Of a stretch of 64,000 bases of DNA, positions 40,603 to 53,060 are shown one piece after another (the stretch's first letter is position 1; every line of letters starts with the position of its first letter). Below the pieces are notes generated by a model. It searched no databases, was not told the DNA's origin, and was given only the letters and a program-made list of their open reading frames with translations. The translations under genes were made by a program, and so were the position numbers. The DNA comes from Desulfuribacillus stibiiarsenatis (GTDB lineage Bacteria > Bacillota > Bacilli > Desulfuribacillales > Desulfuribacillaceae), in assembly GCF_001742305.1 (NCBI RefSeq), contig NZ_MJAT01000035.1, positions 1 to 64,000 of the forward strand, written 5' to 3'.

Positions 40603-40866
40603 ATGTATGTTATAATTACATACGATGTCGGAGAAAAAAGGGTACATAAAGTATGTAAAAAGCTAAGAGAGTATTTAACCTGGACACAAAACTCCGTATT
40701 TGAAGGAGTAATAACGAAAGGTAAGTTAACAGAATGTTTGTCAGAAGTTGAGAAGATTATTAAGAAAAAAGAAGATTCAGTATACCTCTACACAATTGAT
40801 AACCCCAAAAATATTACGAAAAAAGTGTATGGACAATCGAAAAACTTTGATGACATGTTTTTGTAA
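40603..40866 (+). CDS. cas2: CRISPR-associated protein Cas2
   Basis: An 87-residue Cas2 (MYVIITYDV start with the conserved D8, then TWTQNSVFEG). It forms the spacer integration complex with Cas1. The ATG at 40603 has GGGGGCG upstream and gives the family N terminus; an in-frame GTG at 40561 is not supported. In most type I-B loci cas2 directly follows cas1. Here it is alone at the opposite end of the locus, about 7.2 kb from cas1, and is followed by a mini-CRISPR element. Confidence 0.95.
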   Translation: MYVIITYDVGEKRVHKVCKKLREYLTWTQNSVFEGVITKGKLTECLSEVEKIIKKKEDSVYLYTIDNPKNITKKVYGQSKNFDDMFL

Positions 40867-40895: not shown

Positions 40896-40901
40896 TATAA
40901 T
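40896..40901 (+). promoter_or_regulatory. Candidate -10 box of the mini-CRISPR RNA
   Basis: A perfect TATAAT ends ten bases before the first degenerate repeat at 40911, so transcription would start almost exactly at that repeat. No good -35 box is visible 16-18 bases upstream. Confidence 0.5.
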
Positions 40902-40907
40902 CAAATA

Positions 40908-41027
40908 CTGGTAACATTTGAACATAGTGGGATATAAAATTTCTTATTTTTATTGTATTACTTTAATACTATATTTGAACGGCGTGGGATTCGGCGAAGG
41001 ATAGGTCAATATTGGCCTATTTTTTTA
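40908..41027 (+). ncRNA. Candidate Cas-regulating RNA (CreR/CreA-like mini-CRISPR) upstream of cas6
   Basis: Two degenerate copies of the array repeat flank a 28-base spacer. 40911-40939 matches the repeat in 23 of 29 positions, with the 3' half nearly intact. 40968-40996 matches in 18 of 29. The spacer is 40940-40967, and a terminator follows at 41001-41027. Spacer bases 1-20 are identical to the minus strand of 41166-41185 in the cas6 leader, with CCA in the type I PAM position. Known CreR and CreA RNAs have this design: Cas6 makes a crRNA-like guide, and partial matching lets Cascade bind and repress without destroying DNA. An antisense effect on the cas6 leader mRNA is the alternative. 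Transcription is inferred. Confidence 0.8.
41001..41027 (+). terminator. Terminator of the mini-CRISPR RNA
   Basis: ATAGGTCAA / TTGGCCTAT hairpin followed by seven T, four bases after the second degenerate repeat. Confidence 0.85.
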
Positions 41028-41129
41028 TGTATAAACATGTGTTCATTCTGTTGGCATGCTATAATCTCTTTAAAATAAGGAATATATTTGAATATAATAG
41101 AAGATTTTAGAAAATAAATGCAATCAATA

Positions 41130-41158
41130 TTGACATAAATGGATAAAAATGATAATTT
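41130..41158 (+). promoter_or_regulatory. Candidate promoter of the cas6-cas1 operon
   Basis: TTGACA (41130-41135) and TAATTT (41153-41158) with a 17-base spacer. Transcription would start near 41165, immediately before the site matched by the mini-CRISPR spacer. A second possible promoter with extended -10 (TGCTATAAT) is at 41057-41065. Confidence 0.6.
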
Positions 41159-41165
41159 ACAGTAA

Positions 41166-41185
41166 AATACAATAAAAATAAGAAA
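41166..41185 (-). promoter_or_regulatory. Self-target of the mini-CRISPR spacer in the cas6 leader
   Basis: On the minus strand this 20-base segment is identical to the start of the mini-CRISPR spacer (40940-40959). It is preceded by CCA (complement of 41186-41188), which fits CCN-type PAMs known for several type I-B systems. It lies between the candidate promoter and the cas6 ribosome binding site. Confidence 0.82.
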
Positions 41186-41198
41186 TGGAGTGGTTTTA

Positions 41199-41921
41199 TT
41201 GAGGTTCTCAATTACGTACCAAGTGTCTGAAATGCCTACGCATTATCGTATGAAGATTTATTCTCTAATCAAAGAAGCAGTCAAACGCGGTGCCCCTGAC
41301 TATTATCTGAAGATTTTTGAAGAACAACGAAAAGAAATTAAGCCCCTATGTTTCGGAACCTACCTCAAAGAATTCAAAATCGAAGATAAAAAAATCCATC
41401 TTAAAGAAATCACTATCACAATAAGCTCAACTATGGAATTTGCAATCCATGCATTTAATGGATTTCGGGAACTGCATTCATATGAAATAGAAGGAGTAGA
41501 ATTAAAACAAACCAAGATCCAACTATTAAAAGAAGCAGATATAGTTAGTGGAGAAGTTTACTTCACAACAATTTCCCCGATTTTAATTGAAAACAGAATG
41601 GGTAAGCCATTATCGCCTGCCCATCCAGAATACGAAAATGAATTAAATTATTATGCGAATTTACAGCTGAAGCAGATGGCGGGGCGTGAATTGTACAAGC
41701 CTATCCGTTTTACACCAATCAAAATGAAGAAGACTGTCATTAAGGAAAGTAATCAATTATTTCGCCAAACTCACAATGAAGAATCATTATTTTACACTGC
41801 TTATAGGGGAGATTTTAAACTACAAGGTCATCCAGAGGATCTAAAGATACTCTATCAGTTCGGTTTAGGTAAGAGAACTGCATATTTTGGCTTACTAGAA
41901 TATAGAAGAGAGGGGGCGTAA
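41199..41921 (+). CDS. cas6: CRISPR-associated endoribonuclease Cas6
   Basis: A 240-residue Cas6 of the RAMP superfamily, which cuts pre-crRNA within repeats to leave an eight-base 5' handle. The glycine-rich loop near the C terminus (FGLGKRTAYFGLLE) and the N-terminal MRFSITYQV are typical. I chose the TTG at 41199, which has GGAG eight bases upstream; a GTG at 41190 overlaps that site. First gene of a tight operon, with cas8b starting three bases after its stop. Confidence 0.93.
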   Translation: MRFSITYQVSEMPTHYRMKIYSLIKEAVKRGAPDYYLKIFEEQRKEIKPLCFGTYLKEFKIEDKKIHLKEITITISSTMEFAIHAFNGFRELHSYEIEGVELKQTKIQLLKEADIVSGEVYFTTISPILIENRMGKPLSPAHPEYENELNYYANLQLKQMAGRELYKPIRFTPIKMKKTVIKESNQLFRQTHNEESLFYTAYRGDFKLQGHPEDLKILYQFGLGKRTAYFGLLEYRREGA

Positions 41922-41923
41922 GA

Positions 41924-43720
41924 ATGGGTGTACAGGTTGATGCCGAAGAGTGGCCAATTATAGCAGGGTTAATAGGTCTCATCCGTGTAGTAGGAAAAGA
42001 AGAAATTGCTATTAATAGAAATGGTATTGCCATTTCAAAAGAAAACTTAGAGGATTTAGCAAGCAAGATGGTTTACAAGTTAATCGAAACATTTAATGTT
42101 GTGGAACGAGATGTTGAGAAAATGCGTTGGTATTCAACTAACCTAGTTAAGAATCCTGATAAGTTAAAACTATATGCGACAGAAGTAAAGAAGATAATTG
42201 CAGAGCAACTTAAGAAAATAGAAAAGTATTTCGGGGATACTGATGAGTGCCAGCAAGTAAGAGACTTGGTAGAAAAACTGAAAGAAATAAATGATACACA
42301 AAGCAATCTAATCTTAGAAGATGTAATTGATCAATATAAAAAAATAGCATCAACCTCATTCATTAAAGAAAAGCTAACGTTAAATTATGTGAAATCTGTA
42401 ATTTTAAGTCCGTTTTTTGGACAAACAAGTATTTTGCAACCAGTGTTTAGCTCGAGGAACACAGAAGAGCATATTATTCAGATTGATAAAGACTTTGTTA
42501 TGCCGGCATTAATAGAATTGGAGCTTCATAATCTACTTAAGAGTGAAGAGAATATTGATGGAGTGGTTAAATATTTGGACCAAACCAAAGATGGATATCA
42601 ACCGTTTCGAGAGTGGTATCGTGAGATTAAGAAAATGAAAGATCCAGTTCAACTTAAACAGTATCTTTCTAAGCAAGTGTTAAAGTGTTCGTTTATTGAT
42701 AGTTTACTAGCAACACAGACGTATGAAGAAATGATGTTTTCACCGCTAGCGTTCTCTAATAATAATGCTGTAAACTTCAATTGGGATTTCGAGAAGAAGC
42801 AACCAATACCAATGAGTGCAGTAGCAAGACTAATTCTCTTTTTGTCCCCTTTAGGAATGACATTCTATAATCGTAAAAGGGGTTCCCAACAATCTACTGA
42901 GAATTTACGTTTTGCGGGGTTAATCATGACGGAAGAATCATTTGAGGATGTATTGTCATATAACAACACATATCGTATGCTACGATCAAAAAATAGTAGT
43001 TTTGAAGAGGCTATTGTAGGTGTATTAGAAGAATCTGTAGATAAGGCGGAACGCATATATAGAGCGTTTCAATTTTTAGAGGTTCACTCTGAATCAAAGA
43101 AGACTCTATTAGACTACTACCATATGCCAATGTATCTAGTGCACTATCTTAAGAAATACGGCAAGTCACTGAGGCTAATACAAAATCGGGAAATTAGGGA
43201 TGAATACCTTAGAACTTTATTAAAAGGGATAGATCCGAAAAAGGCGATATTTGAATTATTAAGAGAATCAATTTCTAATAGTTTTTATGGAGAAGGGGCT
43301 TATATAGCCACACGGGAACGACTAAGAGTATTAAATGCCAAAAAAGGAGTGAAAGAAATGACGAAAGACGACAAGTTGATTACCGCTATATACTTCCACG
43401 GCGTAGAGTTGCGCGAGGCTTTATTCCAAGATAAAGGATCTAATGAGGAAGGGGTATATAGGGCGAGTGGCCGTAAAAAGATGGAAGGGATTGCATACCG
43501 TCTCATCAATGCAATCAAGGCTGGAAACAAACAGGCATTTATGGATACGATATTCAGATTATATATTGGAGCAAAAGATTTAAGAGTTCCCAGTTTTTTT
43601 GTGAACGCATTTAAGGAAGACGGCTTAGAATTTGAAACGATAGGGTCAGCCTTCGTTGCAGGTATGTTAGGGCAAGAAATATCAAGAAAAGAGAAAGAAG
43701 GGGCGGTTAACAATGGCTAA
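41924..43720 (+). CDS. cas8b: Type I-B Cascade large subunit Cas8b (Cst1-like)
   Basis: A 598-residue protein whose position between cas6 and cas7 and overall character fit the Cas8b/Cst1 large subunit, which recognises the PAM and anchors the crRNA 5' end. Sequence conservation in this family is weak, so the call rests mostly on context. The helical C-terminal 120 residues (from M479) look like a Cas11 small subunit and have their own ribosome binding site and ATG. ATG start with AGGGGG seven bases upstream; overlaps cas7 by eight bases. Confidence 0.87.
   Translation: MGVQVDAEEWPIIAGLIGLIRVVGKEEIAINRNGIAISKENLEDLASKMVYKLIETFNVVERDVEKMRWYSTNLVKNPDKLKLYATEVKKIIAEQLKKIEKYFGDTDECQQVRDLVEKLKEINDTQSNLILEDVIDQYKKIASTSFIKEKLTLNYVKSVILSPFFGQTSILQPVFSSRNTEEHIIQIDKDFVMPALIELELHNLLKSEENIDGVVKYLDQTKDGYQPFREWYREIKKMKDPVQLKQYLSKQVLKCSFIDSLLATQTYEEMMFSPLAFSNNNAVNFNWDFEKKQPIPMSAVARLILFLSPLGMTFYNRKRGSQQSTENLRFAGLIMTEESFEDVLSYNNTYRMLRSKNSSFEEAIVGVLEESVDKAERIYRAFQFLEVHSESKKTLLDYYHMPMYLVHYLKKYGKSLRLIQNREIRDEYLRTLLKGIDPKKAIFELLRESISNSFYGEGAYIATRERLRVLNAKKGVKEMTKDDKLITAIYFHGVELREALFQDKGSNEEGVYRASGRKKMEGIAYRLINAIKAGNKQAFMDTIFRLYIGAKDLRVPSFFVNAFKEDGLEFETIGSAFVAGMLGQEISRKEKEGAVNNG
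43358..43720 (+). CDS. cas11: Internal Cas11b small subunit translated from within cas8b
   Basis: Inside cas8b and in the same frame, AAAAAAGGAG lies eight bases before an ATG (residue 479 of Cas8b). Translation from it gives a 120-residue, mostly helical protein that ends at the cas8b stop. In type I-B, I-C and I-D systems the small subunit Cas11 is known to be made in this way from the 3' end of the large-subunit gene. The size and the strong site fit that model. The separate product is inferred. Confidence 0.72.
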   Translation: MTKDDKLITAIYFHGVELREALFQDKGSNEEGVYRASGRKKMEGIAYRLINAIKAGNKQAFMDTIFRLYIGAKDLRVPSFFVNAFKEDGLEFETIGSAFVAGMLGQEISRKEKEGAVNNG

Positions 43721-44606
43721 AGCACTGTCGATGACAATAATATTTAAGGCGAATTCATTAAATTATGGAGAGGGAATTGCAAATATATCGGAATTGAAGA
43801 AAATTCATCGTGGTAATGGGGATGTGCTAACATTTGCCTCCCGTCAAAGTATTCGGTACGATATTGTGCGGCTAGGGAACGAGTGGTTCGAGTGGAATCT
43901 AAATACTGTAGATAAAACGAAAGGTACTCTACAATTTAGAGAGGATATATCAATTGCAGATTCAGTTGAAATGGACTTCTTTGGTTACTTGAAGACAGGG
44001 AAGAAATCACTAAAGAGACCAGCAGTAGCAAGATTATCGCATGCAGTATCCCTAGAACCATATAAGAGTGACCTAGAGTTCTTGAACAACATGGGTTTAG
44101 CAGAAAGAATTGATGAAACCCCAAACCTCGCAAACATTGAACAGCACGAGAGTCTATATTCTTATACGATTACAATTGATTTAGACAAAGTTGGTATTGA
44201 TGGGGAGGTTAAGCTAGATACGAATGAAAGGGCCCAAAGAGTGAATCAGCTCTTAGAGATAATCAAGTTACTCAATAGAAACATACGCGGTCGTCAGGAA
44301 AGTTTAGCGCCTATGTTCGTAATTGGAGGGGTATACTCAGTTGCGAATCCGTTTTTCTTAGGTAGGATTAATCTTGTACCTATGAAGAAGAGCTGGGATA
44401 TAAATATAAGTACATTACAATCTGTAACCGAGAGAACGTTTGCTGGGAATACAGTAGGCTCACAAACCTTTGTTGGATTTGATGCTGGAATTTTTGGTAA
44501 CGAAGCGAATTTTAGTGAAATAAATGTAATTGGCGTGAGCTCAGTAGAAAGCTTTTTCCAGAAGATAAAAGAGCAGGTTGGAAACTACTATGGAGTACGT
44601 GTGTAA
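43713..44606 (+). CDS. cas7: Cascade backbone protein Cas7 (Cst2/DevR type)
   Basis: A 297-residue RAMP protein of the Cst2/DevR family, six or so copies of which coat the crRNA in Cascade. Recognisable parts are the N-terminal strand region with ANSLNYGEGIANISELKKIHR and the segment LTFASRQSIRYDIVR. The ATG lies eight bases inside cas8b with GGGGCGG upstream. It overlaps the next gene by one base (TAATG). Confidence 0.92.
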   Translation: MAKALSMTIIFKANSLNYGEGIANISELKKIHRGNGDVLTFASRQSIRYDIVRLGNEWFEWNLNTVDKTKGTLQFREDISIADSVEMDFFGYLKTGKKSLKRPAVARLSHAVSLEPYKSDLEFLNNMGLAERIDETPNLANIEQHESLYSYTITIDLDKVGIDGEVKLDTNERAQRVNQLLEIIKLLNRNIRGRQESLAPMFVIGGVYSVANPFFLGRINLVPMKKSWDINISTLQSVTERTFAGNTVGSQTFVGFDAGIFGNEANFSEINVIGVSSVESFFQKIKEQVGNYYGVRV

Positions 44607-45304
44607 TGAAGGCTTTGCGGTTAAAAATATATCAGCAGACTGCCTGTTATAAGAAACCATTTGCGTTCAAGGTGTCAGAGACATATCCGCTTCCGCCGTA
44701 TTCAACCGTAAAAGGTATGGTTCACTCTATATTAGGTGCGGATTCACTTATCCCTATGAAAATAAGCATCCAAGGAATATATGACACGATAGTTACTGAT
44801 TATCAAACACATTATTTCTTTAAACGTGATAAAACAGAGGAATTTGCATTAACAGCTGATGGACTAGGGATAAGTAGGGAATTTAATGATATCACAACAA
44901 TGCCAATTTACATGCACATGTTATACGATGTCAATTTAGTACTACATATACAGGCAGCAGATGAAATTCTAGAACAACTTGAAAGTGCAATTAACTCACG
45001 GAATATCCATTTTAGTTTGGGCAGATGGGAAGACTTAGTTCGTGTAGATGAATGTGAGATTATACATTTGCAAGATTGTGGAGAGCCCCGACCATTACAC
45101 CATAACGCATTTGTTCCAATCGAATATTTATCTGATGTGGCGCATTTTCCTTATAAATTGAATTGGACATATGAAGTAATAAATAATGTTCGAGTGTGGA
45201 ATAAAATCCAAGTGGGTTACGTTCAAAAAGGCTTGTGGATTGAGCAACATGAACAATTGAAAATTGACCCCTATGGTGACCTTGTATTTTTCCATATTGA
45301 TTAA
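44606..45304 (+). CDS. cas5: Cascade protein Cas5 (type I-B, Cas5t)
   Basis: A 232-residue RAMP protein with the Cas5 N-terminal pattern (LRLKIYQQTACYKKPFAFKVSETYPLPPYSTVKGMVHSILG), which holds the crRNA 5' handle. The start codon overlaps the cas7 stop by one base, indicating coupling. The C-terminal part is divergent, as usual. A perfect hairpin follows before cas3. Confidence 0.92.
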   Translation: MKALRLKIYQQTACYKKPFAFKVSETYPLPPYSTVKGMVHSILGADSLIPMKISIQGIYDTIVTDYQTHYFFKRDKTEEFALTADGLGISREFNDITTMPIYMHMLYDVNLVLHIQAADEILEQLESAINSRNIHFSLGRWEDLVRVDECEIIHLQDCGEPRPLHHNAFVPIEYLSDVAHFPYKLNWTYEVINNVRVWNKIQVGYVQKGLWIEQHEQLKIDPYGDLVFFHID

Positions 45305-45329
45305 AGGGGGAGCCTTGGGCTCTCCTTTT
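45303..45329 (+). other. Intercistronic hairpin between cas5 and cas3
   Basis: AAAGGGGGAGCC and GGCTCTCCTTTT pair over all 12 positions (two G-T) around a TTG triloop. The stem starts at the cas5 stop codon and ends in TTTTA, so it could be a weak terminator or an mRNA processing site that lowers cas3-cas4-cas1 expression relative to Cascade. Confidence 0.65.
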
Positions 45330-45347
45330 ACATAGAGGGGGATTTTC

Positions 45348-47579
45348 ATGATTTACTATGCTAAGTCAGTGCCCATAGAAACAATTTCACAGCATACAGA
45401 TGAATTACTTTTAAGATTAGAAGAATACAAACGGGTAAACTATGAATCATTGCCGTTGCTTAACCAACGGGATTGGGAACTGTTAGAGATAGCTGTCAGA
45501 TATCATGATGTCGGGAAAACTGATCTTGTGTTCCAAAATAAAATTCGCTCGGTTATAAACGAGGAACTACTGAAGACTAACTATGATTCTGACGTACCGC
45601 ATAGTTTTTTATCGGTAATGGCAATCCCATATGACCTTCTAAAGATTGATAAAGAAGAAAGAAAAATACTGTCCCAAATTATTGGGTTTCATCATGAACG
45701 AGATGTTGCAGTAGAACATGAGCAAGATGAAATAATCGACACATACAAGCGCAATATTTTGCCATTCAAAGATGAGATTGAGAAACAGTTAGGAACAGTG
45801 ATTGATAAGTCTAGTTATGGTACTAAATTGAATGTTCTTCATACTAAAAAGAGATTAACGCCTAGTGACGACGGGTATCTAAAATATGTATTACTAAAAG
45901 GGATTCTGCACCGATTGGATCATGCTGCATCTGCGCACGTGCCTATAGAACTTGCTTCTGAAATGAATGTGGGACATTATGTAAATAGGTATTTTACGGA
46001 TAAGATTAAAGTAGAGAAAAGGCCGTTACAACGATTTGTAGAAGAACAACAAGAATCGCATTTAGTAATAGTTGCACAAACGGGAATGGGAAAAACAGAG
46101 GCTGGACTACTATGGATTGGGGATAAAAAAGGTTTCTTGACTTTACCGCTCAGGGTCAGCATTAATTCAATGTATAGCAGAATTACGAATATGGAAAATA
46201 TAGGCTTCAGCAAAGTTGGTGAAGACGGCATTGAAGAAGCGACAGGGCTTTTGCATTCTACTAGTTATGAGTATTTATCAACTCTAGAAATATTGGACGA
46301 GCGATTATTATCCCAAATGCATAATCAGTCTAAAGAGTTCGCCAACAAATTAATTATATCTACCATAGATCAGATTCTTAAATTCCCTTTCTATTATCTA
46401 GGTTTTGAAAAAGAATATGCTACGATGAGTACTTCAAAAGTTATTATCGATGAATTACAAGCGTATGACCCGAAGATTGCCGCGCTACTAATTCGGGCGA
46501 TGGTGCTAATTGACCAAATCGGGGGATCGTTTATGATTATGACAGCGACCTTGCCTGACTACTATTTCAAAACACTGCTTAAAAAAATGAAAAATCCTCG
46601 GCGTCCTATTATGTTTCAAGAATTTATAGACGATACAGTAAGAAGGCACCATTTGAAACTTAGTAATCAATCTATTGCAGACGACGAAGTTATTCAAGAG
46701 ATGTATGAAAAAGGGATATCGAAGAAAGTTCTTGTAATATGTAATACCGTTAATAGAGCAGTAGAAATCTTTGATAAATTAAAACATCTAGGAGCGAAAG
46801 TAAGGCTATTACACTCACGATTTATTAAAAGGGATCGTGAACGATTAGAAAAAGAAATACTAGAATTTGCCCATAATAATGAGACAGGTATTTGGGTAAC
46901 CACTCAATTGGTGGAGGCAAGTTTAGATATTGATTTTGACATTCTTTTTACTGAGATGTCAACGTTAGATAGTCAATTTCAAAGATATGGGAGATGTAAT
47001 AGAAAAGGCATAAAGTCATTTGAAGAAGCTAACGTCTATGTATTTACTAACAATGTATCTGGTATTATGAATAAGAAAGGCTCAGTTTACCATTATGAGA
47101 TTTATCAAAGAAGCTTAGAGATATTAAATATTTACATTGATGAAATACCATTGTTAGAATCAACAAAAGCAAACATGATAAAGGAATTATATGATGAAAA
47201 TGGGTTAGAAGGTACTAAGTTTAAAGATGAGTTTGACAGAACCCTCGCACAATTTGAGGATAGACCGCACTATGATCTAAAAAAACAAGAGGCCCAGAAC
47301 CTACTTAGGGATATTCAGCAAACTCAAGTATTGCCTATCCAGTTTTTAATGAATGAAGAGTACACAGATGCTTTATATTTGTATGAGTCGAGTCAGACAA
47401 AATTAGATAGAAAGAAATATAGAAAAGTACTAGAATCTTTTACTTTATCAGTTAATAAGTGGAGGGCAAAAGATAAAATAACATCAGAAATAAATGGTCT
47501 TCAAGGAATCTTTGTAATTGACTGTATGTATTCTCACGAAAAAGGCTTGTTATTAGAGGAAGTAGAACTTTTTGTATAG
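45348..47579 (+). CDS. cas3: CRISPR-associated helicase/nuclease Cas3
   Basis: A 743-residue effector with an N-terminal HD nuclease domain (H16, H53-D54 in RYHDVGK, HH near 114) and a superfamily 2 helicase: P-loop AQTGMGKTEAG near 243, DEXH-type box DELQ at 368-371, motif III MTATLP, and motif VI QRYGRCNRKG. It degrades target DNA after Cascade binding. AGAGGGGG precedes the ATG. Confidence 0.95.
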   Translation: MIYYAKSVPIETISQHTDELLLRLEEYKRVNYESLPLLNQRDWELLEIAVRYHDVGKTDLVFQNKIRSVINEELLKTNYDSDVPHSFLSVMAIPYDLLKIDKEERKILSQIIGFHHERDVAVEHEQDEIIDTYKRNILPFKDEIEKQLGTVIDKSSYGTKLNVLHTKKRLTPSDDGYLKYVLLKGILHRLDHAASAHVPIELASEMNVGHYVNRYFTDKIKVEKRPLQRFVEEQQESHLVIVAQTGMGKTEAGLLWIGDKKGFLTLPLRVSINSMYSRITNMENIGFSKVGEDGIEEATGLLHSTSYEYLSTLEILDERLLSQMHNQSKEFANKLIISTIDQILKFPFYYLGFEKEYATMSTSKVIIDELQAYDPKIAALLIRAMVLIDQIGGSFMIMTATLPDYYFKTLLKKMKNPRRPIMFQEFIDDTVRRHHLKLSNQSIADDEVIQEMYEKGISKKVLVICNTVNRAVEIFDKLKHLGAKVRLLHSRFIKRDRERLEKEILEFAHNNETGIWVTTQLVEASLDIDFDILFTEMSTLDSQFQRYGRCNRKGIKSFEEANVYVFTNNVSGIMNKKGSVYHYEIYQRSLEILNIYIDEIPLLESTKANMIKELYDENGLEGTKFKDEFDRTLAQFEDRPHYDLKKQEAQNLLRDIQQTQVLPIQFLMNEEYTDALYLYESSQTKLDRKKYRKVLESFTLSVNKWRAKDKITSEINGLQGIFVIDCMYSHEKGLLLEEVELFV

Positions 47580-47592
47580 GTGGTGAATGTAT

Positions 47593-48099
47593 ATGCATGA
47601 CCAATCTATAGGTGGAATCGATCTACAATATTATGAGTTATGTAAACGGAAGTTATGGCTATATAGGAAAGGCATCAATATGGAGGAAGAATCTGATTAT
47701 GTTTTACAAGGAAAAGTATTACATGAAAGGTCGTATCCAAGACTACTTGATAAAGAACGGTTGATTGATGATGCATTTGCTATCGATGCAATAGACGGGG
47801 AATATGTAAGAGAGGTTAAGCTATCAAGCAAAATGTCGAATGCAGATAAGATGCAGATGTTATTTTATCTTTATCAGCTTTCTTTGCGGGGGATTTATAA
47901 AAAAGGTCTTATAAGTTATACGAAGGAAAGGCGAACAGAGGAAATCGAATTAACGGAAAGCAATCAAAAACAAATCATCTCGGCAATTGGCGGGGTCTAT
48001 GAAATAATAAATCTGCCAACGGCTCCTCCTGTAAAGAAATTCCCTTATTGTAAATCGTGTGCTTATTATGAGTTTTGCTATTCTAGGGAGGATGATTAG
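47593..48099 (+). CDS. cas4: CRISPR-associated exonuclease Cas4
   Basis: About 168 residues of the Cas4/RecB nuclease family with an iron-sulfur cysteine set (one Cys in YYELCKRKLWLY, three in the C-terminal CKSCAYYEFC) and nuclease motifs (GKVLHE, FAIDAIDG, REVKLSS). It trims prespacers and selects their PAM end for Cas1-Cas2. The ATG at 47593 lies nine bases after AGGTGG; another ATG at 47587 is only three bases away from that site. Confidence 0.93.
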   Translation: MHDQSIGGIDLQYYELCKRKLWLYRKGINMEEESDYVLQGKVLHERSYPRLLDKERLIDDAFAIDAIDGEYVREVKLSSKMSNADKMQMLFYLYQLSLRGIYKKGLISYTKERRTEEIELTESNQKQIISAIGGVYEIINLPTAPPVKKFPYCKSCAYYEFCYSREDD

Positions 48100-48101
48100 A
48101 T

Positions 48102-49088
48102 ATGTTGCGTGATCACTATATTTTTTCTAATGGCAGGCTTAAGCGTAAGGACAACACAGTGTATTTCGAAAATGAACAAGGGCAGAAAAAAGCCCTCCCT
48201 ATTGAAGCGATTCAAACATTGCATTTGTTCGGCGAAATCGATTTAAACAGTAAATTTCTTACTTATATCAGTCAATACGGGATATCATTACAGTTCTATA
48301 ATTACTATGGATTTTATGCAGGTGCATATCATCCAAAGGAGAAAAAAGAGTCGGGTCTAGTAATTGTAAAACAAAGTGCTCACTACTTAGATAGGGATAA
48401 GAGACAATTTCTAGCATATCAATTCTTGCAAGGTGCAGTCCATCATATGTTACGAAACCTTAGAAGACATAAAGAAAGTGTACAAACCCATATTGACGAG
48501 ATAGAATTAATTGCACAGAAACTTCAATTTGCTAAAGATATTCAATCTCTTATGGGAATAGAAGGTCAGATTAGACATATTTATTATCAATCATTCAATC
48601 ATATATTAAAACAAGACTTCTTAATGGAAAAGCGCGAGAAACAACCACCTAGAGATCCACTTAATGCGCTAATATCGTTTGGTAATACATTGATGTACAC
48701 TGCAATACTAGGGGAAATATACAAGACCCCTCTAAATCCGACCATAAGCTACTTGCATGAACCGTCAGTGAGACGCTTCTCTTTATGCTTGGATATAGCA
48801 GAGATATTCAAACCACTAATTGTTGATTCGATTATATTTGCTTTAATAAACAAGAAAAGCATTACAAAAAAACATTTTGAATACTTAGAAAAAGAGATTT
48901 GTTACTTAAATGAAGAAGGGAAAAAACGCTTTATAACTGCATGGGAAGAGAAATTAGGTACATCAGTAAAACATAGAACATTAAATCGTAATACAACCTA
49001 TCGATACTTATTGCGATTAGAATGTTATAAATTAGTAAAGCACGTTATTGATGATCAAGTATACAAACCATTAAAAGCGTGGTGGTAG
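48102..49088 (+). CDS. cas1: CRISPR-associated integrase Cas1
   Basis: A 328-residue Cas1 with the metal ligands E154 (LMGIEGQIRH), H219 (YLHEPS) and the D231/E234 region (LDIAEIFKP). It inserts new spacers next to the leader together with Cas2. The ATG lies two bases after the cas4 stop with GGGAGGATG upstream. Last gene of the operon; the leader and array follow. Confidence 0.96.
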   Translation: MLRDHYIFSNGRLKRKDNTVYFENEQGQKKALPIEAIQTLHLFGEIDLNSKFLTYISQYGISLQFYNYYGFYAGAYHPKEKKESGLVIVKQSAHYLDRDKRQFLAYQFLQGAVHHMLRNLRRHKESVQTHIDEIELIAQKLQFAKDIQSLMGIEGQIRHIYYQSFNHILKQDFLMEKREKQPPRDPLNALISFGNTLMYTAILGEIYKTPLNPTISYLHEPSVRRFSLCLDIAEIFKPLIVDSIIFALINKKSITKKHFEYLEKEICYLNEEGKKRFITAWEEKLGTSVKHRTLNRNTTYRYLLRLECYKLVKHVIDDQVYKPLKAWW

Positions 49089-49334
49089 TGTTGTAAAATT
49101 TCATATAATCGATTACATTATATGGTATGATTGGCGTATATGATAAATTTTTTAATTACATTTTGCAGCAAATGTGAATAGTGACTTAGTTTTGTCTAAA
49201 GCCTGTGGAATAAGGGGTTCTGAACTTTTTTTTCATAAAATTAAAATCGCAACCCCCGATTTACTGCAAATGGTATAATTCTTGTCAGACAAGAATGCTG
49301 TTCTGTCAGGCTTTCTGATGCTTAACTTTTGAGG
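49089..49334 (+). other. CRISPR leader
   Basis: The 246 AT-rich bases between cas1 and the first repeat. It contains a perfect inverted repeat CATATAAT / ATTATATG (49102-49109, 49117-49124), an extended -10 element TGGTATAAT (49271-49279) and a second inverted repeat ATTCTTG / CAAGAAT (49278-49284, 49290-49296). Decay of the repeats at the far end of the array confirms that this side is the leader. Confidence 0.8.
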
Positions 49335-52300
49335 ATTTCATCTGAACGTAGTGGGATATAAAGACCTAAGAAAACGATTAAAACCGAGAAAATCGACCTA
49401 GATTTCATCTGAACGTAGTGGGATATAAAGGTAGATATCTGTATAAATTTCGAAATTAAAGATCCCGATTTCATCTGAACGTAGTGGGATATAAAGAAGA
49501 AAAAAAAGGAAAGCTATAATAAAGGCAATAAATTTCATCTGAACGTAGTGGGATATAAAGTGATATTCGGAGTCATTGACAATATCGACTGGTTTAATTT
49601 CATCTGAACGTAGTGGGATATAAAGTTACTATCAGTTTCATATTTAAGAAAATCATAATCATTTCATCTGAACGTAGTGGGATATAAAGTCGGTCTATCT
49701 CTTTGGGCTCTTGGCTTTGGTATCATTTCATCTGAACGTAGTGGGATATAAAGTTAGATCCTGATGTAAACGAGGTAGATTTAAAAGAATTTCATCTGAA
49801 CGTAGTGGGATATAAAGTCCTATCCCACACATCCCAAATTGCTCTGTAAGCGTATTTCATCTGAACGTAGTGGGATATAAAGGTATAAAAAAGAAGCCCC
49901 TAGATTGGGGCTTTCTCATTTCATCTGAACGTAGTGGGATATAAAGTCTAATGACACCGCAGTATTTCTATGGGGCAATCCATTTCATCTGAACGTAGTG
50001 GGATATAAAGATCAAGGAATATGGGGATACGGTTTACTTCTCTGACCATTTCATCTGAACGTAGTGGGATATAAAGTGCTATGAACTGTATGAGTATTGC
50101 AAATTAGTTTTAATTTCATCTGAACGTAGTGGGATATAAAGATTCGAGCAAGGGCTGCTGCTTACACTCTAGCAAACAATTTCATCTGAACGTAGTGGGA
50201 TATAAAGGTTAATAGGAGTGTTAGCAACTTTTTTCATAGCAGATTTCATCTGAACGTAGTGGGATATAAAGAACGAAGAAATGAGCCCATTCAACTTCAA
50301 AGAAATGATTTCATCTGAACGTAGTGGGATATAAAGATAGATGATTCAGTATTGTGTTTGTACAGGCAGGAGTATTTCATCTGAACGTAGTGGGATATAA
50401 AGGTCATATGAAATGTTTGGCGTTAATTTCTACAAGAATTTCATCTGAACGTAGTGGGATATAAAGTATATAAGTCCATTAACAGCACACGCTAACGGTA
50501 CGATTTCATCTGAACGTAGTGGGATATAAAGACCTTTGTAAAACTCACCTTCATATCTAGGTAAACATTTCATCTGAACGTAGTGGGATATAAAGACAGT
50601 TAAAGGCATTCGTATTGGTTATGTGAAAGAATTTCATCTGAACGTAGTGGGATATAAAGACCTCAGACATAAGAACAAGACAGTTTGAAACCTTATTTCA
50701 TCTGAACGTAGTGGGATATAAAGTTCGATGAAATGCTCGATACCATGAATGAAATGAAAGAATTTCATCTGAACGTAGTGGGATATAAAGTTCTTAAGGT
50801 CAATCCCTTGCCTAGCAAAAGATTCAATTTCATCTGAACGTAGTGGGATATAAAGAGTAGATTCTTTGAATTGATAGTGATATCTTTCTTCATTTCATCT
50901 GAACGTAGTGGGATATAAAGGTGCGACATCGGTATCTACGCTTTCAGGCGTTACCTCATTTCATCTGAACGTAGTGGGATATAAAGAGCGTACAAAAGCC
51001 CAAGCATAAAAGGCGAGTACCAATTTCATCTGAACGTAGTGGGATATAAAGACATCACCTACTTACTCTGGACCTTTATATCCTGATGATTTCATCTGAA
51101 CGTAGTGGGATATAAAGTGAAATAGCTTAGGTTCAATATTTTGTTCATGTATGATTTCATCTGAACGTAGTGGGATATAAAGTTTGTCTCTTAAATCGTT
51201 TATTGTATTTCCTAACTTGATTTCATCTGAACGTAGTGGGATATAAAGATGGATGAAAACACTATTGACGTAGTGCAGGAGAAATTTCATCTGAACGTAG
51301 TGGGATATAAAGATGTTTAAGACGTCCGACAACTTCGGATATTGCTGATTTCATCTGAACGTAGTGGGATATAAAGATCAATGAAATCATTAAACATAAT
51401 AAGGCTCATGCCATTTCATCTGAACGTAGTGGGATATAAAGACAAAGGCAGGATAAAGACATGACAGAGCAGGAACTTATTTCATCTGAACGTAGTGGGA
51501 TATAAAGTCCAAGCCACAAACCAGTAATAAACAAGCTAATATATTTCATCTGAACGTAGTGGGATATAAAGAGCATAATCAATATATCTTCCATCGGGAA
51601 AATGAGAATTTCATCTGAACGTAGTGGGATATAAAGGAAGGTGGATATGGCCATTTAGTTGTTGTGCAAGCCAATTTCATCTGAACGTAGTGGGATATAA
51701 AGTAAGCAGGCTTTTTACTAATTGATCTCCCGTCTTTGATTTCATCTGAACGTAGTGGGATATAAAGAGAGAAGTAAATTGCAAATTATGTTTAAAGGAA
51801 ATATTTCATCTGAACGTAGTGGGATATAAAGCAAACAGAGCAAAAGGAAGATTTAGCAGGCAACAAAATTTCATCTGAACGTAGTGGGATATAAAGGCTG
51901 ATTAATGCAACGTATCAGCGTAGACTTTCCTATTTCATCTGAACGTAGTGGGATATAAAGCCAGTAGGCGCGGTTGCTACTGCAATCGTTGGCACATAAT
52001 TTCATCTGAACGTAGTGGGATATAAAGTTGATTTTCGAACTCCAAAGACTACAGCGAAAACAGATTTCATCTGAACGTAGTGGGATATAAAGAAAACATT
52101 TGAAGGTGCGGATTTAGGTAGTCCTGAATTTCATCTGAACGTAGTGGGATATAAAGATTTAGCGGCTTTCAAAAGATTAAGTTGAAACTCAAATTTCATC
52201 TGAACGTAGTGGGATATAAAGAGGAGAGAACGTGTATTAATCATTACCGTATAAGTATTTCATCTGAACGTAGTGGGATATAAAGGCGGCTCTTGGAATC

Positions 52301-53060
52301 TTCTTAGCTGTTTGGGGTATCGATTTCATCTAAACGTAGTGGGATATAAAGAATCTAGTGAATTATGCAGTTGAAAGATTATACAAAATTTCATCTGAAC
52401 GTAGTGGGATATAAAGAAGCAAAACATGACCTACAGAGTGCTGCAACACATATTTCATCTGAACGTAGTGAGATATAAAGATTAAAGACATTTACGCAAA
52501 GTTAGTGCGTGATGGTATTTCATCTGAACGTAGTGGGATATAAAGGTAAGAAGATACCATTTAATGACAAAAGAATCATGATTTCATCTGAACGTAGTGG
52601 GATATAAAGAAAGGTCTTTGGTTAAAAGTCGATTTATCGAGCAAATATTTCATCTGAACGTAGTGGGATATAAAGATTTATGAAGTAGATGTAACAGATG
52701 CAGACGGTGAATTTCATCTGAACGTAGTGGGATATAAAGCGATACATGCGAATCATATAAGACATTTAGGCAATCATTACATCTGAACGTAGTGGGATAT
52801 AAAGGGTAAGAATACATGACGATTGGTAGGAACAAACTCATTTCATCTGAACGTAGTGGGATATAAAGTATGGAGGTACTTGGCAACAGTTCTCGATGTC
52901 TTATTTCATCTGAACGTAGTTGGGATATAAAGTGATGACTCTATCCTTTTCCATGCTATCCATTATCATTTCATCTGAACGTAGCGGGATATAAAGAACA
53001 TATCAACTAAAATTACGACTGCCATGATAAAGTTTCATCTGAACGTAGAGGCAGATAAAT
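49335..53060 (+). CRISPR. Type I-B CRISPR array: 58 repeats of 29 bp, 57 spacers
   Basis: The repeat consists of ATTTCATCTGAACGTAGTGG followed by GATATAAAG. Starts were read one by one from 49335 to 53032 at intervals of about 64-67 bases, so spacers are mostly 35-38 bases. The first 46 repeats are identical. Variants begin at 52323 (one change), then 52452, 52776, 52903 (one inserted T) and 52968, and the last, at 53032, is strongly altered in its 3' half. This marks the old end. I saw no duplicated spacers. The crRNA handle would be ATATAAAG. Confidence 0.98.

Follow-up and report, generated by a model that had tools for sequence, protein, structure and literature searches.

A two-repeat mini-CRISPR upstream of cas6 in Desulfuribacillus stibiiarsenatis is a probable Cas-regulating RNA element of a type I-B locus

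We analyzed a 64,000-nucleotide (nt) stretch of Desulfuribacillus stibiiarsenatis DNA (assembly GCF_001742305.1, contig NZ_MJAT01000035.1, positions 1 to 64,000, forward strand; hereafter the window), in which a two-repeat mini-CRISPR (clustered regularly interspaced short palindromic repeats) of a type I-B locus, flanked by cas2 and cas6, carries a spacer that matches the cas6 leader. We consider it very probable that this element encodes a Cas-regulating RNA (CreR), a CRISPR RNA (crRNA)-like molecule that would guide Cascade to repress the cas6-cas1 operon. This interpretation had been put forward in a sequence-only reading of the window, and it is supported at the sequence level by the co-variation of spacer and leader, the mismatches at guide positions 6 and 12, the protospacer-adjacent motif (PAM) and the crRNA handle retained in the first repeat (R1). 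The element and its target, described relative to the 29-nt repeat of the canonical array of the window (ATTTCATCTGAACGTAGTGGGATATAAAG), comprise the following features:

40896..40901, plus strand: putative -10 box TATAAT of the mini-CRISPR promoter (sequence and promoter scan), nine bases 5' of R1
40911..40939, plus strand: degenerate repeat R1, 23/29 identity to the array repeat
40932-40939, plus strand: intact crRNA 5' handle ATATAAAA, inside R1
40940..40967, plus strand: spacer of 28 nt, of which nt 1-20 (40940-40959) match the cas6 leader
40968..40996, plus strand: degenerate repeat R2, 18/29 identity to the array repeat, 5' half retained and 3' handle lost
40997..41024, plus strand: terminator-like hairpin (RNA fold) of 12 pairs with a loop of 4, running into a T tract, directly 3' of R2
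41130..41158, plus strand: predicted cas6 promoter (from the sequence), TTGACA, 17 nt, TAATTT with an extended -10 TGA; weak -10 consensus
41166..41185, minus strand: target (protospacer), 20/20 identity to spacer nt 1-20
41186..41188, minus strand: PAM CCA, adjoining the target; its complement is TGG on the plus strand

The anatomy proposed earlier was largely borne out. Both repeat identities and the limits of the spacer were verified, and the spacer is indeed shorter than those of the array, whose range is 34-38 nt and not 35-38 nt. The TATAAT box is present at nine bases from R1 instead of the ten given before, and the promoter scan found a weak -35. What had been called a clean terminator holds in substance, as a hairpin and T tract follow R2 directly; a simple terminator scan lists no terminator, probably because the hairpin stem absorbs the T run. 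A comparable hairpin and T tract immediately 3' of R2 was seen by eye in loci L028, L030, L032, L043, L078 and L083 among the relatives described below. Alignment to the window likewise upheld the self-match: the first 20 spacer bases equal the minus strand at 41185-41166 (20/20, beside CCA), and the match ends at spacer nt 21.

Searching the window for CCA plus the 20-mer with up to three mismatches returned two matches, the spacer and the target, and none in 100 dinucleotide shuffles; the next-best 20-nt match to the seed within the window is 16/20. Allowing one mismatch, the seed 16-mer occurs in the 3.1-Mb genome in two copies only, again spacer and target. A chance match was rejected on the basis of this genome-unique seed, the 0/100 shuffles and the pairing permutation test given below. 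The target lies about 14 base pairs (bp) upstream of the cas6 start codon. Since TTGACA at 41130 and the extended -10 TGATAATTT at 41150-41158 would place the transcription start near 41165, the target is predicted to cover approximately +1 to +20 of the cas6 transcript; a similar -35/extended -10 pattern was recognized by eye in the leaders of relatives. The earlier placement of the target between the cas6 promoter and the ribosome binding site stands as to position, with one change of emphasis: TGG, which complements the PAM at 41186-41188, shares bases with the Shine-Dalgarno sequence GGAG of cas6 (41187-41190), in the region TGGAG (41186-41190).

To place the element in a comparative context, relatives were collected by Cas8b searches across the class, order and phylum, giving 31 distinct loci including the window (22 in a first sample and 9 in a second; L085 duplicates L028). 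A scan of genome contigs gave one relative, a plasmid search no useful ones, and the family numbers two genomes, the other of which is without this cas8b. The scan for self-matching elements counted a locus as positive where a match was accompanied by a CC PAM and a handle-like sequence; pairs in the first sample were found by total or contiguous match at a threshold lax enough to admit other mismatch patterns, and the second sample was scanned without position weighting. Nine of the 31 type I-B loci have, upstream of cas6, a mini-CRISPR with a spacer that matches their own cas6 leader beside CCA or CCT, namely the window, L028, L030, L032, L035, L040 (first spotted by eye and then recovered by the scan) and L043 in the first sample, and L078 and L083 in the second. 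Of the 22 cas6 leaders in the first sample, the scan was positive for those of the seven loci just named and for none of the rest. In the second sample it also returned a tenth locus, L077, whose spacer targets its own promoter and not the cas6 leader. As a control, 591 windows gave eight positives, nearly always in or at the edge of CRISPR arrays, with about one outside arrays. The arrangement in the window, in which a match of 20/20 within the cas6 leader is followed by no match, has similar counterparts in the eight relatives, and its 20 nt form the longest contiguous match of the set.

The spacers and leaders of these loci co-vary. Sequences differ between lineages, yet each of the nine spacers fits its own leader best, with a mean match over 16 bases of 14.7/16 to the own leader versus 8.8/16 to the other leaders. 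In a swap test, the own-leader sum of 132 was reached by 1 of 362,880 permutations, the true pairing only, and with seven loci and 20 bases the true pairing was again unique (1 of 5,040). As these loci were chosen for their self-match, the test speaks to locus specificity and not to frequency. Nor are the loci fully independent, since the window spacer matches the L028 leader at 17/20, which suggests common descent. The independent drift of spacer and leader that would have spoken against the proposal was thus not what we found: the nine spacers each fit their own cas6 leader far better than those of the others.

The distribution of mismatches points to recognition by Cascade and not by an antisense RNA. 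Across nt 1-15 of the ten pairs there are 12 mismatches, 10 of them at positions 6 and 12 (10/20 cells versus 2/130 elsewhere; Fisher p = 9e-9), and the three pairs found later show the same bias on their own (4/6 cells versus 1/39; p = 5e-4). In type I Cascade every sixth guide base is flipped out, so mismatches at these positions fit a Cascade R-loop, and one of limited length: in the first seven pairs the agreement past position 20 drops to 29%, close to random. Taken together, co-variation and the placement of the mismatches argue that the match is maintained by selection. The repeats show a corresponding asymmetry. The R1 handle ATATAAA is kept in 6/6 aligned loci, handle conservation being 100% in R1 versus 45% in R2, and it is intact even in L032, although the array of that locus uses ATGTAAAG; L078, found later and outside the six aligned loci, has ATGTAAAT. 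This asymmetry fits a crRNA-like product, because R2 only has to end the guide.

The PAM of the target is CCA or CCT in 10/10 homologous pairs. Whether the arrays themselves use a compatible motif, as the proposal demanded, was approached through relatives, whose array spacers have five full-length perfect phage protospacers, all with CCN (CCA in three, CCT or CCG in the rest); one comes from L029 (Cas8b 52% identical to that of the window) and four from the more distant L038 (37%), both loci in which the scan found no CreR. Partial protospacer matches of relatives' spacers show mixed PAMs. The 57 spacers of the window gave no usable protospacer: a phage search returned just one weak 29-base match, and six spacer patterns of the array found nothing in viral contigs. 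Among its partial matches in related genomes is one of spacer 40, at 29/35 in two genomes and both times beside CCA, which counts little because the stretch reads as a conserved ABC-ATPase motif.

We infer the following course of events. The mini-CRISPR would be transcribed from its own promoter, Cas6 would cut in R1, and R2 or the terminator would end the RNA, giving a product of the handle ATATAAAA plus the 28-nt guide. Cascade loaded with this guide would recognize CCA and the adjoining 20 bp where the cas6 transcription unit starts, and would go no further. As the distal guide is unmatched, the R-loop would remain incomplete and Cas3 would not be licensed, so that the bound complex would not cause destruction but would block transcription of cas6-cas8b-cas7-cas5-cas3-cas4-cas1. 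In this way free Cascade would limit its own synthesis, and the repression would be lifted when array crRNAs or anti-CRISPR proteins draw Cascade away. The repression itself, the absence of cleavage and the lifting of repression by competing crRNAs or anti-CRISPR proteins are carried over from CreR work as summarized in PMC12737573 and PMC13131331.

Several points weigh against this interpretation. Its expression side is predicted from sequence, and both the -35 of the mini-CRISPR and the -10 of cas6 are weak. The array PAM, CCN, comes from relatives and not from the window's own array, and in most loci the PAM-side CC comes partly free from the Shine-Dalgarno sequence. In addition, the scan found no self-matching element in 21 of the 31 loci; among these 21 is L042, which does have a mini-CRISPR, but one with no target in the cas6 leader of that locus. 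Perfect pairing over 20 nt next to a PAM, in a locus whose cas3 is apparently full-length, might also be expected to provoke self-targeting, so that the lack of cleavage is an assumption. The earlier term "seed-type match" has to be read with this in mind, as 20 nt is unusually long; the short spacer and its unmatched distal part are the likely reason why Cas3 would not be triggered despite such a match.

Some relatives show variant arrangements. In L040 (genome G020) mini-CRISPR and cas6 are on opposite strands, the element lies at -240 to -40 from the gene, and 17 nt of its spacer match a stretch across the cas6 promoter, next to CCA. In L077 (G822) a mini-CRISPR without an obvious terminator lies at -231 to -120 relative to cas6, and its spacer matches its own promoter, including the TATAAT box (17/18, PAM CCT); its guide RNA possibly represses its own synthesis, and perhaps that of cas6 too by read-through. 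L042 and L043 share one genome (G181), and the L043 spacer matches the L042 leader at 14/20 beside CCT, with mismatches that include positions 6 and 12, so one CreR may serve both cas operons. A more specific idea, which we hold only tentatively and rate as rather unlikely, is that a long (20-nt) but truncated R-loop, and not a short seed, gives firm Cascade binding without cleavage while cas3 is present, in a device rewired in L040, L077 and possibly from L043 to L042.

Other explanations of the self-match were weighed against these data. In the window and most relatives the spacer RNA is complementary to the cas6 messenger RNA (mRNA) leader adjoining the ribosome binding site, and a plain antisense small RNA could pair there, near the Shine-Dalgarno sequence, and block translation without Cascade. 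We regard this as very improbable: RNA duplexes leave the clustering of mismatches at positions 6 and 12 unexplained, the Cas handle is retained, L077 targets its own promoter, and the L040 target is on the other strand, being the coding strand of the promoter, which makes pairing to the mRNA impossible. Slightly more improbable still is an addiction module of the CreTA type, in which the guide would repress a toxin RNA and not the cas operon. The antitoxins of such modules, CreA, are also described as mini-CRISPRs of two degenerate repeats with a partial promoter match (PMC9458426, PMC8501985). Here the target is so close to the cas6 start codon that no room is left for a toxin gene, and in nine loci it lies inside the cas6 leader. 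This candidate was rejected, as no separate gene lies between target and cas6 that could supply a distinct toxin RNA.

The mini-CRISPR could also be a decayed array remnant whose self-match is accidental or a relic of the past, with no present function. CRISPR self-targets and array relics are common, and the repeats of the element are degenerate. Against this, seed and target stay matched across lineages with differing sequences, the handle stays complete although the remainder has decayed, and the control windows are free of such pairs outside arrays, except for about one; we give a remnant as little credence as an addiction module.

The CreR interpretation places the element among known cases in which a Cas effector represses its own expression. 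Judging by what PMC13131331 and PMC12737573 state, CreR autorepression is established for types I-B, I-E and V-A (Liu et al. 2023, Cell Host Microbe, doi 10.1016/j.chom.2023.08.005, on CreR as Cas-regulating RNA, cited in the former; reviewed in the latter), and the likeness includes the link of a degenerate-repeat mini-CRISPR to a cas locus and the presence of type I-B among these types. The element thus appears to be of the kind described in 2023. CreR reportedly originate in modulatory mini-CRISPRs. What differs in the window, as far as CreR are portrayed in the citing papers, is the uninterrupted match of 20 bases within a spacer of 28 nt and the target at the transcript start with its PAM inside the Shine-Dalgarno sequence. 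A further survey (Shmakov et al. 2023, Nucleic Acids Res, doi 10.1093/nar/gkad495) concerns, by its title, CRISPR-derived regulatory RNAs in CRISPR-Cas loci. With CreA, as presented in PMC8501985 and PMC9458426, the element shares two degenerate repeats, a partial promoter match and Cascade as repressor; CreA represses a toxin RNA, whereas the element targets the cas6 leader, and the first repeat of CreTA is reported as the more diverged (PMC9458426), whereas in the window element it is R2 that has lost the handle and R1 that has it perfectly preserved. Autoregulation of Cas9 by a natural single-guide RNA (Workman et al. 2021, as cited in PMC10651486) likewise uses a dedicated RNA to guide a Cas effector to repress its own expression. 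The window element is type I-B and mini-CRISPR-derived, unlike the type II Cas9 single guide. The latter is said to be tracrRNA (trans-activating CRISPR RNA)-derived.

Over known CreR, the present analysis adds evidence from comparison between loci, a signature of mismatches at every sixth base, and variant arrangements (L040, L077 and perhaps the action of L043 on L042). The footprint of the ten loci (sixth-base mismatches, PAM and handle) predicts Cascade-guided regulation from sequence alone and separates it from antisense RNA, and the loci offer natural pairs for probing what length of PAM-proximal match Cascade can tolerate before Cas3 is triggered. With their two repeats, such brakes can escape array finders designed for several good repeats and so easily go unnoticed. 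Repression that follows the level of free Cascade would bear on the balance between autoimmunity and readiness and on the response to anti-CRISPR proteins.

The remaining features of the locus are the following:

40603..40866, plus strand: cas2 (87 amino acids; TIGR01573, PF09827, PADLOC Cas2b), upstream of the mini-CRISPR
41199..41921, plus strand: cas6 with a TTG start (TIGR01877, PF01881, PADLOC Cas6b), first gene of the putatively repressed operon
41924..49088, plus strand: cas8b, cas7, cas5, cas3, cas4 and cas1 of the type I-B operon (PADLOC 6/6 proteins; NCBIfam all except cas8b)
49335..53060, plus strand: canonical CRISPR array of 58 repeats and 57 spacers of 34-38 nt, downstream of cas1

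The locus does not appear disarmed, because cas3 is full length (743 amino acids) with helicase and HD domains found. The last three array repeats (52903-53060) are degenerate, with 22, 28 and 24 of 29 bases in register, the first of them via a one-base insertion, as is typical of the leader-distal end of an array. The adaptation genes are split in the window, with cas2 lying 5' of the mini-CRISPR and none following cas1 (49088-49335), unlike relatives whose fetched stretch covers the complete operon, in which cas2 comes shortly after cas1. Being outside the cas6-cas1 operon, cas2 of the window would escape the proposed repression.
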